NCBI GenBank assembly: GCA_030425385.1 | Contig: JAUIAH010000001.1 | Coordinates: 62,001-126,000, forward strand | Direction: 5' to 3' | Length of the DNA: 64,000 nt | DNA from: Verrucomicrobiia bacterium | GTDB taxonomy: Bacteria > Verrucomicrobiota > Verrucomicrobiia > Verrucomicrobiales > DEV007 | Shown here: positions 15,917-22,467 of the stretch, one piece after another | Numbering within the stretch: the first letter of the stretch is position 1 | Layout of the letters: the number at the start of each line of letters is the position of its first letter | Made by a program: the position numbers and the translations under genes | The notes under the pieces: model-generated | The model's database searches: none | The model's input: only the letters and a program-made list of their open reading frames with translations | Told to the model about the DNA's origin: nothing

Positions 15917-17124
15917 AATACCGACTGCTAGTAGTGGTCTCTCTCTTAGCATCGACGATACAGGCCCAGGAACCCTCTTCACCTTTGGAGGATCGGGTCG
16001 CAGGTCTTCTCTATGGGGCGGCCATTGGAGATGCGCTCGGTGGTCCGGTCGAATTTCAGAGCCGCGAAGACGTAGCGCGCCTTCCACAGCCACCCAAGCT
16101 GTGGCGCCCAGGTGAGAAATGGGACGATGAGGCGAAACGCGCCGCCCAAGAACGCCTGATCTTGAGGCCCTACGCCCCCCTACGCCCACAGTCCGCCTCC
16201 TACGGACAATGGGGCGACCCAGCTCCTGCGGGCACCATCACCGACGACACGCGGCACAAGTTGGTTCTGTTAGAAGCGCTTCATCAAACCAATGGCGGCC
16301 CTCTAAACGCCCAGGGATTGGCCCGCGCCTATCTCCAATGGCCGAGCCATCCCCTTCATCCTGAATGGACCACGCTCCGAGACGATTGGTTAGAAGAATG
16401 GCACTTCGCTAGTCATTGGGTGCTAGGAAATCGAGATCCCTCCGTGGCGAGACCACCTGAGCGGCTGTGGCAGGGATTGCCCACCTGCTGTGGGCAAATG
16501 ACCTCTCTCCCGCTCGCTGCTCTCTTTCCCGGTGAACCAGAAGCCGCCTACCGCGCCTGTTATCAACTCAGCTACTTCGACAACAGTTGGGGAAAAGACC
16601 TTAACGCCGCCCTGGTAGCAGGCTTAGCCATCGCGCTCACGTTGCCGAAGGAGCACCCCGATAAGTGGGGCTTTATCCGCAAGGCCATGCTGGAAACGGA
16701 CCCCTATCTTTATGGCGACATCCGCTTCACCAGGCGTCAGGTGGACCGCTGGCTAGACCTTGCCATGAACCTTGCGGCGAACGCTGACGGCGAACCCGCC
16801 AAACTCTTTGCCGCCTTGGAAGAGACGTTTGCCAAGACGATCAAATGGGAAGCCCAAGTGCCATTTGTAGTTGCATTCAGCTGCCTCGCACTCAGTGAGG
16901 ACGCTCCCCTAGCCGCTCTTCAATTGAGCATTGAGTGGGGACACGATACCGACTCCTACGCAGCACTCGTCGGGAGCTTCATCGGCGCCTTGCACGGCGC
17001 GCAAATCTTTCCACAACGATTACGGCAACCGTTAGACGAACGGCTTCTAGCAGACTTTCAGATCGATCTCCAGAAAGAGGCTGCCTGGCTCATTTCGAGT
17101 CTTTCGAAGGCTCCTGGTCCGTAA
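15901..17124 (+). CDS. Exported ADP-ribosylglycohydrolase-family protein
   Basis: 407 residues. The start at ATG 15901 has AAGGAG at about 15890, within the end of the phosphotransferase gene. Residues 1-22 are a signal peptide (MGAFLEYRLLVVVSLL ... TIQAQE), so the protein is exported, unlike classical DraG. The ARH fold signatures are there: GAAIGDALGGPVEF (39-52), TITDDTRHK with Asp115/116 binding metal, and the C-terminal HDTDSYAALVGSFIGAL. The family removes ADP-ribose from protein side chains or other ADP-ribosyl derivatives with two metal ions. An exported form would act on an extracytoplasmic substrate. The gene's last 35 bases overlap the end of the convergent hydrolase gene. Confidence 0.82.
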   Translation: MGAFLEYRLLVVVSLLASTIQAQEPSSPLEDRVAGLLYGAAIGDALGGPVEFQSREDVARLPQPPKLWRPGEKWDDEAKRAAQERLILRPYAPLRPQSASYGQWGDPAPAGTITDDTRHKLVLLEALHQTNGGPLNAQGLARAYLQWPSHPLHPEWTTLRDDWLEEWHFASHWVLGNRDPSVARPPERLWQGLPTCCGQMTSLPLAALFPGEPEAAYRACYQLSYFDNSWGKDLNAALVAGLAIALTLPKEHPDKWGFIRKAMLETDPYLYGDIRFTRRQVDRWLDLAMNLAANADGEPAKLFAALEETFAKTIKWEAQVPFVVAFSCLALSEDAPLAALQLSIEWGHDTDSYAALVGSFIGALHGAQIFPQRLRQPLDERLLADFQIDLQKEAAWLISSLSKAPGP

Positions 17125-18346
17125 TGGCGTCGTAGATGAGCTTTTTAAGACCAGACTCCAAATTGAAGTTGAACGGCTCCGTCTGTTCCATCGTCACCAC
17201 AATGAGGCCATCTTTGGGTGACACCCAATAGTGCGTGCTCGCAGCCCCACCCCAACCATACTCTCCCAACCGCGCACCTGGATCCCAATCCGTGTCCTTG
17301 ACCCTGACAGAAAAGCCCAATCCGAAGCCCGTTCCTGGACGCTGATCCCCAATCCCGATGTGGGGAATCTTGTCAGGGAGTTGGTTTGTGGTCATCAAGG
17401 AAACCGTCGCCTCCTTGAGATAACGTTTCCCCTCAAAAGTCCCGCCATTGGCAATCATCTGCAGGAACCGGAGATAATCCCGCGTGGTGGATACCAAGCC
17501 ACCGCCTCCTGAGGCCAGCATCGGCGGCTTTAAATAGCGGCTCGTGCTTGGGGAATCCGTCACCTTAAGCCCAGGGCCATGCTTCGCAGCAAACCGAGAA
17601 ACTTTCTCCTCTGGCACATGAAATCCCGTATCATGCATCTGCAAGGGCACAAAGAAACGTTCCTTGAGAAACACCTCGAAGGTTTTACCCGAAACGTTCT
17701 CCACCAACGCGCCGAGAACATCGGTTGAAACGCTATAGACCCAGCGTTCGCCTGGATGATAGAGCAAAGGGATCTCTCCTAACCGACTGACCAAGTCATT
17801 TAAGTTACCACCCATGACCTGCGCCTCACGATAGCGTTGATCAACCTCGGTGTTGCCAAAGAAACCGTAGGTCAGCCCTGAAGTATGTCGCAGCAGATCG
17901 CGCACCGTCATCGGCCGAGATACCGCCACCTCTTTTCCCTCAAGCAAGGCTTTCTGCTCGACCAGTGCGGGGAGATACTTGCCCACAGGATCATCCAACT
18001 GCAGCTTCCCTTCATCCATCAGCATCAACGCGGCCGCACTGGTGATGGCCTTGGTCATGGAATAAATGCGAAAGATGGTGTCCTCTTGCATGGACTCTCC
18101 TGATTCCGCATCCCGCTCCCCAAAAGCTTTCAAGTAGGCGATCTTGCCATGACGCGCCACCGCCACCACGCACCCTGACAATTTCTCATCAACTAGCAGT
18201 TTCTCGACCACACCATCGATCTTCGCCAACCCTTCCGACGAGAGCCCCACGGACGACGGCGGGACGGAAGGGATCGGTTCGCTTCGCATGGGAGTCATCG
18301 CCGTGAACATCGCAAGGAAGGTCAAGAGAAGCAGCGTATTCTTCAT
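17090..18346 (-). CDS. Serine beta-lactamase/penicillin-binding-like hydrolase (class C fold)
   Basis: 418 residues from the ATG at 18346; 47 further codons upstream are open but lie antisense to, or outside, any protein-like sequence. A signal peptide (MKNTLLLLTFLAMFTAM) exports it. The catalytic SxxK is SMTK (Ser96-Lys99). The second motif YxS/N appears as YSV in WVYSVSTDVLGAL. The third motif region is near GWGGAASTHYW, where HxG is replaced by GGA. The overall pattern (GCVVAVARHGKIAYLKAFG, DTIFRIYSMTKAITS, LRHTSGLTYGF) is that of the EstB/beta-lactamase-family esterases. It may cleave esters or D-Ala peptides; antibiotic hydrolysis is not implied. Its end overlaps the upstream operon's last gene by 35 bases. 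Confidence 0.82.
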   Translation of the reverse strand: MKNTLLLLTFLAMFTAMTPMRSEPIPSVPPSSVGLSSEGLAKIDGVVEKLLVDEKLSGCVVAVARHGKIAYLKAFGERDAESGESMQEDTIFRIYSMTKAITSAAALMLMDEGKLQLDDPVGKYLPALVEQKALLEGKEVAVSRPMTVRDLLRHTSGLTYGFFGNTEVDQRYREAQVMGGNLNDLVSRLGEIPLLYHPGERWVYSVSTDVLGALVENVSGKTFEVFLKERFFVPLQMHDTGFHVPEEKVSRFAAKHGPGLKVTDSPSTSRYLKPPMLASGGGGLVSTTRDYLRFLQMIANGGTFEGKRYLKEATVSLMTTNQLPDKIPHIGIGDQRPGTGFGLGFSVRVKDTDWDPGARLGEYGWGGAASTHYWVSPKDGLIVVTMEQTEPFNFNLESGLKKLIYDAITDQEPSKDSK

Positions 18347-18395
18347 GCACCCAGCCTGCGATGAATCCGAGGGCGATGCAAGATCCGAGCCAACC

Positions 18396-20042
18396 TCAAG
18401 GCACTCGGCGAGCTTTCTTCCCGTTGAGAAACGCTCCAATAGCGGTGTAGCGCACGAGATGCTCGTAGGCCAGAAGCAGGATCGCAATGGTTGCCGTGCT
18501 CACGAAGAGAAACTTGAGACCACTGGGGAGCGCAAAGCCAGCGATGCCTTGTTGCAACCAAAGGATCAATGGCAAATGCGCTAGGTAGAGCCAGTAGGCC
18601 GCATCTGACAGGTAGCGAAGCCTGACATTCTCCTTACCAAAGAATTGCCGAAAGAATCCGATGCACCCATACACCATCAGCCAAGCATAGAGGACCGCGG
18701 CAAGGCTCATGAAATAGTGGGCGCTTTCATCGGTATTGGTCCGTTGTTCGAAGTAATGCAGCCCCACGATGAGACTGGGCACTGCCAAAGCAATGCAGAG
18801 GGGCCACCGCTTGCCTGCATGTGACTTGAAGGATTTCTGCGTGAAGGCGATCGCCCCGCACCCGAAGAAGATGGCATAATAGAGGAGCTTCGGTGGCCAG
18901 GGCAAGAGACCCGCAGCGGTGTCGGGACCGAACGTTTGCTTCATGAATACCTGAGCCAGATAAGTGAGGGGTAGCACCCACAACCATCGCCATGGCTCGA
19001 TCAGCACATTGTCAGGGCATCGCAAGATTCCTCTGGAAACCAACCAGACCACTGGCACAAACAACGCCACCAGCAAACACAAATAGTAGAGGAACCAAAG
19101 ATGGTGAAAGATCGGGAGCCATGCGCCTAAGGCGTAGAGTCCGCGAATGGTCTCCCACTGGCGAACGCCTCTCGTCGGTGGCTTACTGCCCTCATTGACC
19201 GCTTCTTGAGCAATGATCGCGTCGCGCAAGATCGGCTCGATCTCGGCACGGCCCCTCTCCAAATCATCACGCTGGACGCGAATATCGATCACCCCAGCAA
19301 TGGTCCTCGCCACTGTCCACGATCCCTTTGAGGTGTCCAATGGCGTCTCGCCCCGCACATTGGTAGGTTGTGGATCCGCGCCCGCTTGGAGCAACTGACG
19401 CACCACCTCATCGCGGCCGAAGAAGACCGCCCCATGCAGCGGGGTGCTACCTTCGAAGTTCGCCTTCTCTGCATCGGCCCCCTGCTCTAACAGCCATGCA
19501 ACCACGTCAGCATGGCCGGACAAAGCTGCCCAGCCAAGGGGAGTCGTCCCACCCGCATCCCGCTCATTGAGATGGAGCGAATCCTTGAACACCCAACCCT
19601 CTAACGCTTTGAGATCACCTTGCTTTGCAGCCATCCAGACACTTCCCGTCCGACCACGTTTCTCCGCCACCCAGGCCTTGGATGGCCCACTGAGCATCCC
19701 AACGACAATCATGCATGGCCAAACGATCACCAAGGCCACCACGAGCGGGATGAGAATGCGCTGGACGCGATGAGCAATCAAAGCCCGCAGGCCTCGGCGT
19801 CTCCATAACATTGCGGTAAAGAAGCCACTGAGCAGAAAGAACAGCGGCATGCGAAACCCATGGATCGCATGTTGAACCAATCCGAATACCCTTGTGTTCT
19901 GACACAAGTCTTGAGCAGGCCAGATGGGTAGGTGCACATAGGCAAGAGCCCCGTGCAAGACAATCCCTAACAGCATCGCAATCGCTCGTAGCGCATCCAG
20001 GTCGTGGAAACGCGTGGAAGGCTGATCGGGACGCACCGCCAA
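18396..20042 (-). CDS. Acyltransferase-3 family membrane protein with inserted ankyrin repeats
   Basis: 548 residues. It starts like an acyltransferase-3/OpgC-type enzyme: DLDALRAIAMLLGIVLHGALAY with Arg19 and His30, helices and FFLLSGFF. After about residue 125 comes a soluble insertion of ankyrin repeats (135-240): TTPLGWAALSGHADVVAWLL, STPLHGAVFFGRDEVVRQLL, then GETPLDTS. The remaining helices (from WLPIFHHLWFLYYLCLL on) finish the transporter-like acyltransferase fold, ending AYEHLVRYT. The enzyme would O-acylate a periplasmic or cell-envelope glycan. The start is a TTG at 20042 (no ATG fits well). It lies 49 bases upstream of the beta-lactamase-like gene and 15 bases behind the next gene, all on the same strand. 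Confidence 0.78.
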   Translation of the reverse strand: MAVRPDQPSTRFHDLDALRAIAMLLGIVLHGALAYVHLPIWPAQDLCQNTRVFGLVQHAIHGFRMPLFFLLSGFFTAMLWRRRGLRALIAHRVQRILIPLVVALVIVWPCMIVVGMLSGPSKAWVAEKRGRTGSVWMAAKQGDLKALEGWVFKDSLHLNERDAGGTTPLGWAALSGHADVVAWLLEQGADAEKANFEGSTPLHGAVFFGRDEVVRQLLQAGADPQPTNVRGETPLDTSKGSWTVARTIAGVIDIRVQRDDLERGRAEIEPILRDAIIAQEAVNEGSKPPTRGVRQWETIRGLYALGAWLPIFHHLWFLYYLCLLVALFVPVVWLVSRGILRCPDNVLIEPWRWLWVLPLTYLAQVFMKQTFGPDTAAGLLPWPPKLLYYAIFFGCGAIAFTQKSFKSHAGKRWPLCIALAVPSLIVGLHYFEQRTNTDESAHYFMSLAAVLYAWLMVYGCIGFFRQFFGKENVRLRYLSDAAYWLYLAHLPLILWLQQGIAGFALPSGLKFLFVSTATIAILLLAYEHLVRYTAIGAFLNGKKARRVP

Positions 20043-20057: not shown

Positions 20058-21332
20058 CTACTTCCCTCTACCCAAGAGGCGCTCTTGCGTCGCCACGGGC
20101 AGGCCACTTGTCGGCAACCACTCGGCGGCTCCCAGAGGATCTTGCTTCACAAAAGCCTCGGCGGCGAGTGTCATCACCTTCTCACGCCCTTCCGCACTCG
20201 AAAGCTGCGTCGCCCATGCAACCGCAGCACTCGGATCCTCCCAGCGGTGCGAATGGACCATGCCGCCAATGGCCCAGTCTCGACTCTCAGATGGCGGCAT
20301 TTCCGCCACGAATTCACTCGCTGCCAGTGGATCCGCTTTCGTCCAGCCACCTAACAGAGGCCCATAGGCTGCTTTGGCCGCATCACGATCGAGAGAGGCC
20401 AGCCATTCAGCCATCTTAGGACCATCCCGCCACCCCATCTCTTCGGCGATGCCATAGGCGAGGCTACCCGCATTGGGATCGTCACGCGCCAGATCGGTCG
20501 CCCAAGCCAAGGTCGCATCCGCATCTTCTCGCACGCCCGCACGTCCCGCCTCCCACAACGCATGGCCACGCAAATCGCCTTCCTTCAAGTTGCTCGCCCA
20601 TAGGGCCGCCTGTTCAGCACCTCCCTCCTGCACCACTTTTCCCATGACAATACCCATCATCTCTTTGGCCCTCCGATCCCCTGATGATCCTAACGTATAC
20701 ACGAAATCCGCCGCTGATTGAGGATCATGAATCGCCAAGCCATGAACCAACGCTGCTTTCATCCCTTGTTGATTCGCGCCACGATTGCCTTTTTCATTTA
20801 ACGATTCATACCAATCTTTGGCCGCCCCTGGATCATGACTCGCCCAACCCGCTACCGTCGGCCCCATGTCTTTGGCGTCGGTCTCCAGGCCATGCATCAC
20901 GGCATCCAATCCAGCCACCTGACCCCACGCATAATGGAATTCGCGAAACTCCGGATCCGAGTCTTTCAAATGAGCAATTTGTTCTCGAATGGTCAGCGCA
21001 TTCTCTGATGTCAACCCAGCTAACAATTCACCGAAAGCGGTTCGCCTAGCGATGGGATCTGTTGATCGACGCAACTGTTTACCCAAAGTCGCAATGCGGT
21101 CGGAAGATAACACCACAGAACTCTTTACGTCCGGAGAATCGCTGCCGGAATGGGAAGCCTCAATCCTACCCGTCATTTCAAATCCAAGCGGCGAAGTCAT
21201 CGCCTCACCCGTCAAGGAAGCGACTGAGTTTGGACGCTCTGGGTGAGGCTTCAAATGCCACCCGAGCCCAAAAGTAGCGGCCGACAACGTGAGCCACCCC
21301 AGTGGCACAAGAAAGGATCTTGAGAGTTTCAT
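20058..21332 (-). CDS. Exported repeat protein with W-A and D-P helical repeats
   Basis: 424 residues. A signal peptide or anchor (FLVPLGWLTLSAATFGLGW) is followed by roughly 35-residue helical repeats with a W...A / DP...A pattern: GWASHDPGAAKDWYESL, GGWTKADPLAASEFVAEMP, WEDPSAAVAWATQL, KQDPLGAAEWLP. These solenoid-like repeats are common in verrucomicrobial exported proteins. They probably form a protein-binding surface; no catalytic motif is seen. It is 15 bases upstream of the ankyrin-acyltransferase gene, in the same direction, so a shared transcript is likely. The function is unknown. Confidence 0.7.
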   Translation of the reverse strand: MKLSRSFLVPLGWLTLSAATFGLGWHLKPHPERPNSVASLTGEAMTSPLGFEMTGRIEASHSGSDSPDVKSSVVLSSDRIATLGKQLRRSTDPIARRTAFGELLAGLTSENALTIREQIAHLKDSDPEFREFHYAWGQVAGLDAVMHGLETDAKDMGPTVAGWASHDPGAAKDWYESLNEKGNRGANQQGMKAALVHGLAIHDPQSAADFVYTLGSSGDRRAKEMMGIVMGKVVQEGGAEQAALWASNLKEGDLRGHALWEAGRAGVREDADATLAWATDLARDDPNAGSLAYGIAEEMGWRDGPKMAEWLASLDRDAAKAAYGPLLGGWTKADPLAASEFVAEMPPSESRDWAIGGMVHSHRWEDPSAAVAWATQLSSAEGREKVMTLAAEAFVKQDPLGAAEWLPTSGLPVATQERLLGRGK

Positions 21333-21432: not shown

Positions 21433-22467
21433 TCATTCCTGTGGAAGCACTTGCTCCCCTCGCAAATCCACCAGCCCGCGCCATTTCTCCATCCCCGCCG
21501 CCTTCACCGGGCGCGCCCCACGCGCTCGCTTCACCCGCATCCCCTCCCGATGCCGCGCAAACACCTCCTCAATGAAGGCCTCACTCCCCAATGCCAAGCC
21601 TTCACTGAAGTAGCGGACACGCACCCGCACCACCTGCGCCAGGCTCAATTGCCCTCCCTGTCGCGCCACCTTCTCCACTGATTCCTCCCGAATCCCTGCG
21701 CGCCCTTGGCCAGCAGCCTCGCCAGCCTCCGCTTCCCCAAACCCATACAAATAGAGCCGATACTGCGCCTGACACGTTCGCCATTGCTGCGGACTCCCAT
21801 GCGCCACCCCTAACACCCGCATCAACCCTCGCCGCCGCGCCCTATTCCCCGCCACCGCCTCCCCATACCCACTCCACCGATAATCCTTCGGATCCTCCAC
21901 GATCCCCGCCCGCACCGGATTCAGGTCAATGTAAGCCGCCATCGTCAGCAACACCGTCTCGTCATTCTCTAACAACACACTCTTGAACCGATCCTCCCAA
22001 AGCGGCCCCTTGCGCTGAACCTTCTTGTTATACCACTGCGTGAAGCGCTGCTTCAGCTCTTTCATGAACATCGACACATCCGCCATCCGATTCAGAAAGC
22101 GTTGCCGATACTCGGGATACCCCTTCTCAGGACACTGCTCCTTCATCCGCGCCAACATCTGCCGCACCCCAATCAACTGTTCCTCGGAGGTCGTCACCAA
22201 CGCCAACCGCCGCAGCAGTTCCGCATCATCAATCGCCGCACGATGTTCCTCGGCATTCGGCACCTCGATCAGCAAATGGATGTGATTCGCCATCAAGCAG
22301 AACGTGATCAACTCCACTCCAGCAAACCCGCACTGAATCTCCAAGAGTTCCCGAAACTTCTCCTTCACCGGCCCCTCCAGCACAAAGCGCCCCTCAATGA
22401 TCCGAGACATCACGTGGTAACAGTTCGAAGCCGCTCCAGGCTCCCCTTTGATTCGAATCGCTCTCAT
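21433..22467 (-). CDS. REP-associated tyrosine transposase (RAYT, Y1-type)
   Basis: 344 residues. The HUH/Y1 transposase core is present: ITFCLMANHIHLLIEVP with His62/His64 as metal ligands and the candidate catalytic Tyr146 in QRFTQWYNKKV. The later GPLWEDRFKSVLLEN ... YIDLNPVRAGIVEDP block is diagnostic for the RAYT branch. RAYTs are single-copy domesticated relatives of IS200/IS605 transposases that act on short palindromic REP sequences. The region between the His motif and the Tyr is longer than in short RAYTs. Two tandem 32-bp copies with a GGTCGGACCC core lie just upstream (22509-22572) and are the candidate targets. It looks intact. Confidence 0.88.
   Translation of the reverse strand: MRAIRIKGEPGAASNCYHVMSRIIEGRFVLEGPVKEKFRELLEIQCGFAGVELITFCLMANHIHLLIEVPNAEEHRAAIDDAELLRRLALVTTSEEQLIGVRQMLARMKEQCPEKGYPEYRQRFLNRMADVSMFMKELKQRFTQWYNKKVQRKGPLWEDRFKSVLLENDETVLLTMAAYIDLNPVRAGIVEDPKDYRWSGYGEAVAGNRARRRGLMRVLGVAHGSPQQWRTCQAQYRLYLYGFGEAEAGEAAGQGRAGIREESVEKVARQGGQLSLAQVVRVRVRYFSEGLALGSEAFIEEVFARHREGMRVKRARGARPVKAAGMEKWRGLVDLRGEQVLPQE

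Follow-up and report, generated by a model that had tools for sequence, protein, structure and literature searches.

The window, the whole 64,000-nucleotide stretch of Verrucomicrobiia DNA that was analyzed, codes for a membrane acyltransferase of the acyltransferase-3 (AT3) family with an ankyrin module built into the loop between predicted transmembrane helices 3 and 4 (TMH3 and TMH4). There are strong grounds to place this module outside the cytoplasm, and we regard as probable the overall explanation that it would serve there as a docking site, the bound partner directing either the acceptor or the transfer of the acyl group. The gene, the parts of its product and the flanking genes are as follows:

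18396..20042, minus strand: AT3-ankyrin gene (AT3-Ank), 548 amino acids, TTG start, a single uninterrupted frame, aligned with 80 relatives
19686..20042, minus strand: N-terminal part of AT3, residues 1-119, with D16xxR19x10H30 in TMH1, F68x4G73 in TMH2, R92xxR95 and TMH3 (Pfam match at 13-119)
19290..19643, minus strand: ankyrin block, residues 134-251, predicted to be extracytoplasmic (Pfam, structure model and 4ANK match)
19194..19289, minus strand: C-cap closing the ankyrin module (residues 252-283), R265 conserved
18399..19109, minus strand: C-terminal part of AT3, residues 312-548, with the HLWFL motif, TMH4-10 and S479xxxY483 (second Acyl_transf_3 stretch and conservation)
20058..21332, minus strand: repeat protein (rep), 424 amino acids, N-terminus with a hydrophobic segment judged by eye; candidate partner, encoded 15 bp before AT3-Ank
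17090..18346, minus strand: serine hydrolase of the Pfam Beta-lactamase family whose N-terminus resembles a signal peptide; possible operon member, 49 bp after AT3-Ank

A Pfam scan of the AT3-Ank open reading frame retrieved Acyl_transf_3 (PF01757; 104.9 bits against a cut-off of 31, in two stretches, the best at residues 13-119) and Ank_2 (54.2 bits against a cut-off of 27.3, residues 137-227), and four more ankyrin models matched at E 0.001. The scores of both domains are far beyond chance. The ankyrin block lies between TMH3 and TMH4. Measured in the alignment against ankyrin-free paralogues, the whole insert occupies approximately residues 120-311 and contains about four ankyrin repeats followed by a C-cap that extends to about residue 283. 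An earlier note, made from the sequence alone, had proposed an ankyrin block at residues 135-240 of an AT3 loop; the block is present, while the extent given for it was too short. The AlphaFold2 model, built from the alignment with 80 relatives, has a mean pLDDT of 91.8 and a pTM of 0.88, with pLDDT falling to 72-81 at both hinges of the block (residues 121-140 and 281-310). Residues 133-278 of the model superimpose on 4ANK (1n0r) with a Z score of 20.5 and an rmsd of 1.4 over 123 residues, and the best 50 Foldseek matches of the model are all ankyrin or designed-ankyrin entries, judged by their titles. The Pfam matches, the model and the 4ANK comparison thus uphold the claim that a module of the protein-binding type resides within a membrane acyltransferase loop. 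Divided into four parts, the gene has a uniform GC3 of 0.64-0.68 and hence shows no sign of a recently acquired foreign segment.

Relatives were collected by a profile search of genome contigs with the alignment as query, and the best 80 of at least 537 stretches encoding a relative were chosen by score; a contig search with the window protein alone confirmed no relative. All 81 aligned members, the window protein included, give matches to Acyl_transf_3 as well as to Ank_2 at E 0.001, and a single reading frame spans the AT3 and ankyrin parts at each of the 80 best loci, with that of L118 breaking off near the C-terminus. The architecture therefore recurs elsewhere, and the separate gene or frame artefact that had been named as grounds for refutation was looked for in these members and not found. 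Since the relatives were chosen by score against an ankyrin-bearing query, the frequency of ankyrin-free cores is not measurable from this count. The AT3-Ank copy of genome G011 (loci L009 and L118) is broken near the C-terminus in the assembly, which reflects either a true lesion or an assembly error.

Seven copies from genomes of the window's family, including one from its genus, are 37-47% identical to the window protein. By record title, the 80 relatives divide into 55 from Verrucomicrobiota, 14 from Planctomycetota, 10 from other groups (Latescibacterota and Gemmatimonadota among them) and 1 with no group; since most are metagenome bins, single odd taxon labels may be wrong. A profile match was obtained in 50 of 288 genomes of the order sample (E 1e-30; fragments and ankyrin-only matches included) and in 2 of 387 genomes of the phylum sample (E 1e-60). 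The distribution may be called patchy, the two samples differing in models and thresholds and few candidates having been scored per genome.

The motifs of the AT3/TmAT superfamily are DxxRx10H in TMH1, FxxxxG in TMH2, RxxR at TMH3 and SxxxY in TMH9 (PMC12423673). In the alignment, D16, R19, H30, G73, R92, S479 and Y483 are present in 81/81 members, and F68 and R95 in 80/81; Arg19 and His30 had been correctly singled out in the earlier note. With motifs this close to invariant, the enzyme core is intact at the sequence level. The window protein shares these motifs and ten predicted helices with the stand-alone AT3 proteins (PF01757; Oac, WecH, OpgC/MdoC) and differs from them in a TMH3-TMH4 loop of about 190 residues that holds ankyrin repeats and a cap. 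In the ankyrin-free AT3 copies L070, L110 and L116 this loop is short.

Since the structural match list of the window model is occupied by ankyrins, the TmAT fold was assessed on an ankyrin-free paralogue, L110:1939-3159, whose model has a pLDDT of 89.8 and a pTM of 0.90. This model aligns with HGSNAT (8vlv) over 292 residues with a Z score of 14.0 and an rmsd of 4.8 and with GWT1 (8xij) with a Z score of 10.6, the next unrelated chain scoring 5.2. HGSNAT came clearly first for the L110 model in the VIA second look only: Foldseek returned no match for it at E 0.001, the best being HGSNAT 8jkv at E 0.13. For the ankyrin-free L070 protein, no PDB sequence matched at E 1. On the model of its paralogue, the window enzyme is a predicted ten-helix AT3 of the TmAT fold. 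HGSNAT and GWT1 share this fold with L110 and differ in their substrates, and the part of the TmAT paper available to us describes no ankyrin insert (PMC12423673).

The best NCBIfam match of the window protein is MdoC, which raises the reading that the insert is mere ornament on an enzyme of the OpgC/MdoC type, one that succinylates osmoregulated periplasmic glucans. The score of 147.2 bits is far under the curated cut-off of 338 (NF003014), and the ankyrin-free paralogue L110 scores 155.6 bits against the same cut-off. Of 12 enzyme-carrying genomes searched for MdoG, 3 gave a match, whereas the window's own genome (G000, 95.5% complete) had none to PF04349 (mdoG/opgG); in the control search only E. 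coli matched among 14 controls. This identity is largely refuted for the window genome and was rejected there, and we hold the reading as a whole to be extremely unlikely.

The position of the loop relative to the membrane was judged from several observations. Lysines and arginines are more numerous in predicted inside than in predicted outside loops in 81/81 members (means 21.4 versus 6.0; residues 134-311 excluded from the count). According to the parts of a study of AT3 enzymes at our disposal, RxxR lies on the cytosolic face of TMH3, the protein has ten helices with both termini inside and the TMH3-TMH4 loop outside, and Oac has a longer outer TMH3-TMH4 loop (PMC9833829). Since R92xxR95 precedes TMH3, the chain leaves this helix on the outer side, and the TMH3-TMH4 loop is thereby placed outside; the HLWFL motif opens TMH4. 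The exported-looking contexts of the same module in other proteins, described below, are an independent line that agrees with this placement. We therefore strongly infer that the ankyrin block is extracytoplasmic, that is, periplasmic, which of the two orientations weighed in the earlier note favors the periplasmic one. Cytosolic ankyrins are generally abundant, and nothing else was found to speak for a loop on the cytosolic side from which the enzyme would be gated. That orientation is at odds with the charge distribution, the placement of the motifs, the published topology and the exported-looking proteins that share the module; it was rejected, and we leave it the smallest chance of all the alternatives weighed here.

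Relatives of the ankyrin module occur in proteins of other types, whose haem motifs, lipoboxes, hydrophobic segments and signal peptides were identified by visual inspection:

L088-L091, L094-L097, L099 (cut by the contig end) and L247: proteins with CxxCH motifs and a propeller, module at or near the C-terminus (propeller tested by Pfam in L090 and L096)
L107, L109, L122, L133, L139 and L159: CotH-type proteins with two module copies, within about 1 kb of AT3-Ank (Pfam CotH in both proteins scanned, L109 and L159)

The former are proteins of about 1100-1370 amino acids that combine two CxxCH haem c motifs with a beta-propeller. A lipobox is seen in three of the six CotH-type proteins and a signal-peptide-like start in the other three; a lipobox protein, L098, carries two modules, and further module-bearing proteins include a propeller protein and proteins with a lipobox or a signal-peptide-like or signal-anchor-like start. 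A different AT3, L093:96-1850 (minus strand; G001:C183), has a short TMH3-TMH4 loop and the same module at its C-terminus after an extra hydrophobic segment, which places the module outside in this protein too. Taken together, these contexts suggest that the cell envelope in Verrucomicrobiota and Planctomycetota reuses the module as a docking part in different proteins. By eye, a module is also seen on the propeller-like product of a gene that immediately follows AT3-Ank (L155:6616-8544) and part of one on a sulfatase-like protein (L229:1-1938).

The AT3-SGNH enzymes (OafA, OafB, OatA) likewise combine an AT3 core with an added extracytoplasmic domain, and L093:96-1850 resembles the OafB/SGNH layout in having its module after an additional segment. 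In the window protein, by contrast, the added domain is ankyrin rather than a catalytic SGNH domain and is inserted in the TMH3-TMH4 loop; the Pfam scan gave no match to the SGNH domain that such enzymes have at the C-terminus behind an eleventh helix, and about 19 residues follow TMH10. This comparison bears on the possibility that the module itself binds the acyl acceptor (a glycan, a lipoprotein or an envelope polymer) and presents it to the pore. The module is on the acceptor side, in the other AT3 it sits where AT3-SGNH enzymes carry their acceptor-side domain, and the CotH and propeller proteins that also bear it may share an acceptor. However, ankyrin folds as a rule bind proteins, and in several lineages the module gene is linked to a rep gene, which favors a protein as the partner, so we consider direct acceptor binding unlikely.

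The canonical fold of the module is that of 4ANK and the DARPins, from which it differs in belonging to an exported-looking bacterial subfamily with a conserved Arg in the C-cap. Conservation within it falls largely on scaffold positions. R265 of the C-cap is found in 76/81 AT3-Ank rows, F207 in 72/81 and W242 in 40/81, and each of the three is found in 11/11 module rows taken from different proteins, the window included. The position of F207 is, we assume, one used for binding in designed ankyrins. The self-protection ankyrin protein of Bdellovibrio is said to act on enzymes outside the cytosol as a separate soluble protein, whereas the window ankyrin is built into a membrane enzyme.

A module conserved largely as a scaffold may also be a passive assembly tether that leaves catalysis unaffected and serves, for example, to bring several ankyrin-module proteins together in an envelope complex. 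In accordance with this, a further full-module gene, mostly for a lipobox, CotH or propeller protein, is present in the fetched flanks at 13/80 loci, and ankyrin-free paralogues exist. At the other 67 loci no such gene is present in the fetched flanks, whose lengths vary, and the pore-plugging loop of the OafB models would be an odd site for a passive tether. We judge this alternative to be quite unlikely.

Two ankyrin-free AT3 genes, L110:1939-3159 and L116:4054-5274, lie in tandem with AT3-Ank, 63 bp past its stop codon; their products have 407 amino acids and are 47% identical to the window protein. In a tree of the core rooted on two unrelated AT3 proteins, both copies branch within the AT3-Ank clade, an indication that they have lost the module; support is 0.986 for the clade of 46 that holds them, with only 0.33 at the nearest node. 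L070, L182 and the L093-type AT3 fall outside the AT3-Ank clade. The existence of ankyrin-free tandem paralogues makes the module an optional plug-in. It is also a point against a need for docking, since enzyme cores that lack the module do occur.

The mechanism that we favor can be outlined as follows. By analogy with the family, the enzyme would draw on acyl-CoA in the cytosol and transfer the acyl group, by way of its pore, to an acceptor outside the membrane. The TMH3-TMH4 loop, enlarged by an extracytoplasmic module of about four repeats and a C-cap helix, would dock an extracytoplasmic protein. Docking could either bring the acceptor to the mouth of the pore or, with the module built into the pore-plug loop, make acyl transfer dependent on the partner. 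In the window lineage, the likeliest partner would be the repeat protein encoded 15 bp upstream. In the OafB models, as given in the portion of that work available to us, the TMH3-4 loop plugs the cavity or pore, and acyl-CoA can extend across the membrane only once this loop has shifted (PMC9833829). Since the ankyrin domain lies in a loop of this kind, recruitment and gating, which had been put forward as alternatives for the two orientations, are not mutually exclusive, and growth of an ankyrin module in the pore-plug loop could couple docking to gating. Of the separate parts, a docking function of the module is probable, while a gating effect on the enzyme is a possibility that we entertain with some doubt.

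The product of the upstream gene, rep, matches nothing in Pfam or NCBIfam at E 0.001. The rep family was searched in 28 genomes, at a threshold of E 1e-5 or E 1e-20. Six non-self copies are at least 52% identical to it over more than 400 residues, and four of the six adjoin an ankyrin-module gene (G000:C40, G001:C485, G002:C452 and G009:C635). The module neighbors of these four are one stand-alone exported-looking ankyrin protein and three propeller proteins, the corresponding neighbor in the window being the AT3. For the remaining two close copies, no module neighbor was found within the 11 kb fetched (G011:C209) and no module match on the contig at E 1e-20 (G033:C14). Viewed from the modules, a rep gene stands directly beside 5/6 full-length modules of G000 and G001 on the same strand (5/7 when the partial match G001:C571 is counted) and beside 2/5 in six further genomes (full-length matches only; G003:C630 by coordinates only). 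A rep-like gene is the neighbor of AT3-Ank in G011, G056, G170 and G275; it is upstream on the same strand and carries a sigma domain in the first two and is divergent in the last two.

The rep family is large, with 28 matches in G000, and we estimate a chance adjacency of about 1% per gene, taking at most 28 rep matches, a genome of 8 Mb and an assumed gene length; the rep-module pairs may share ancestry, and the cases are not independent. Among 16 genomes with AT3-Ank, eight have no rep match at E 1e-5, and a match at this threshold lies within 10 kb of a full-length module in G141 only, by coordinates; weaker matches (E above 1e-4) are found near modules of G017, G024 and G188. Because half of these genomes lack a rep match, rep cannot be a universal partner, an idea that was rejected, and something else must serve there. 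The link between rep and module genes is thus genuine in one part of the order and missing from the rest. The suggestion that the upstream repeat protein be examined as an interactor was a reasonable one for that part of the order, and we tentatively propose rep as the partner of the module in the window lineage, with somewhat less than even expectation.

Directly upstream of rep, the window contains an IS200-like (Y1) transposase gene (21433-22467, minus strand). At the rep copies of L248 and L093 this position is occupied by sigma and anti-sigma-like genes; rep, anti-sigma-like and ECF sigma genes lie upstream of L093:96-1850. In L071:790-2853 and L083:2702-4777, both upstream of AT3-Ank, Sigma-70 domains are fused via a hydrophobic segment to rep-like repeats.

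Such arrangements allow for a reading in which AT3-Ank belongs to a transmembrane signalling unit, with a membrane-anchored rep or sigma-rep fusion reporting the state of the loop to an ECF sigma factor. It draws on the Sigma-70-rep-like fusions located 36 bp (L071) and 382 bp (L083) upstream of AT3-Ank and on the sigma and FecR or anti-sigma-like genes that precede rep and the module gene at L248 and L093. The window, however, has the transposase gene and no sigma gene directly upstream of rep, and rep-like genes are common in these genomes, so that the linkage may be incidental. This reading is very improbable in our view. The rival explanations considered here are not all mutually exclusive.

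On the downstream side, the Beta-lactamase family model scores 241.6 bits for the reading frame 17090-18487. Matches to this serine hydrolase were found in 3/95 loci, two of which (L087 and L100) are the same region, and it was set aside as too weak a candidate for a conserved partner. A membrane methyltransferase-like gene directly follows AT3-Ank in nine loci (L107, L109, L112, L122, L124, L133, L139, L146 and L171), with a PEMT Pfam match in the one scanned, that of L109. Sulfatase, cytochrome-type and other gene clusters are also seen near AT3-Ank, and no linkage is claimed for them.

Judged by title and opening of the abstract, no paper about an AT3-ankyrin protein is present among the best-ranked literature matches. 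The mentions of "acyltransferase 3" and "ankyrin" in the accessible part of PMC2635572 are unconnected, and "ankyrin" has no occurrences in the main texts of PMC9833829, PMC9558356 and PMC12423673. Among these best-ranked matches, an AT3 with an ankyrin module in the TMH3-TMH4 loop is a variant not previously described.

Whether stand-alone AT3 proteins need partner proteins, and how they differ in this from AT3 with fused domains, is posed as an open question in a review, in the part of it available to us (PMC9558356). An AT3 with a built-in domain of the docking type, together with natural ankyrin-free tandem controls, makes this partner question directly testable. A broader possibility, which we consider rather unlikely, is that a shared extracytoplasmic ankyrin plug-in, paired with rep in some lineages, has been grafted on unrelated envelope proteins, namely the loop of one AT3, the C-terminus of another, haem-motif propellers and CotH proteins, and that in the AT3 with the pore-plug insertion the binding of a partner licenses acyl transfer across the membrane. 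If true, this would amount to a transmembrane acyltransferase gated by a partner, together with a docking code of the periplasm.
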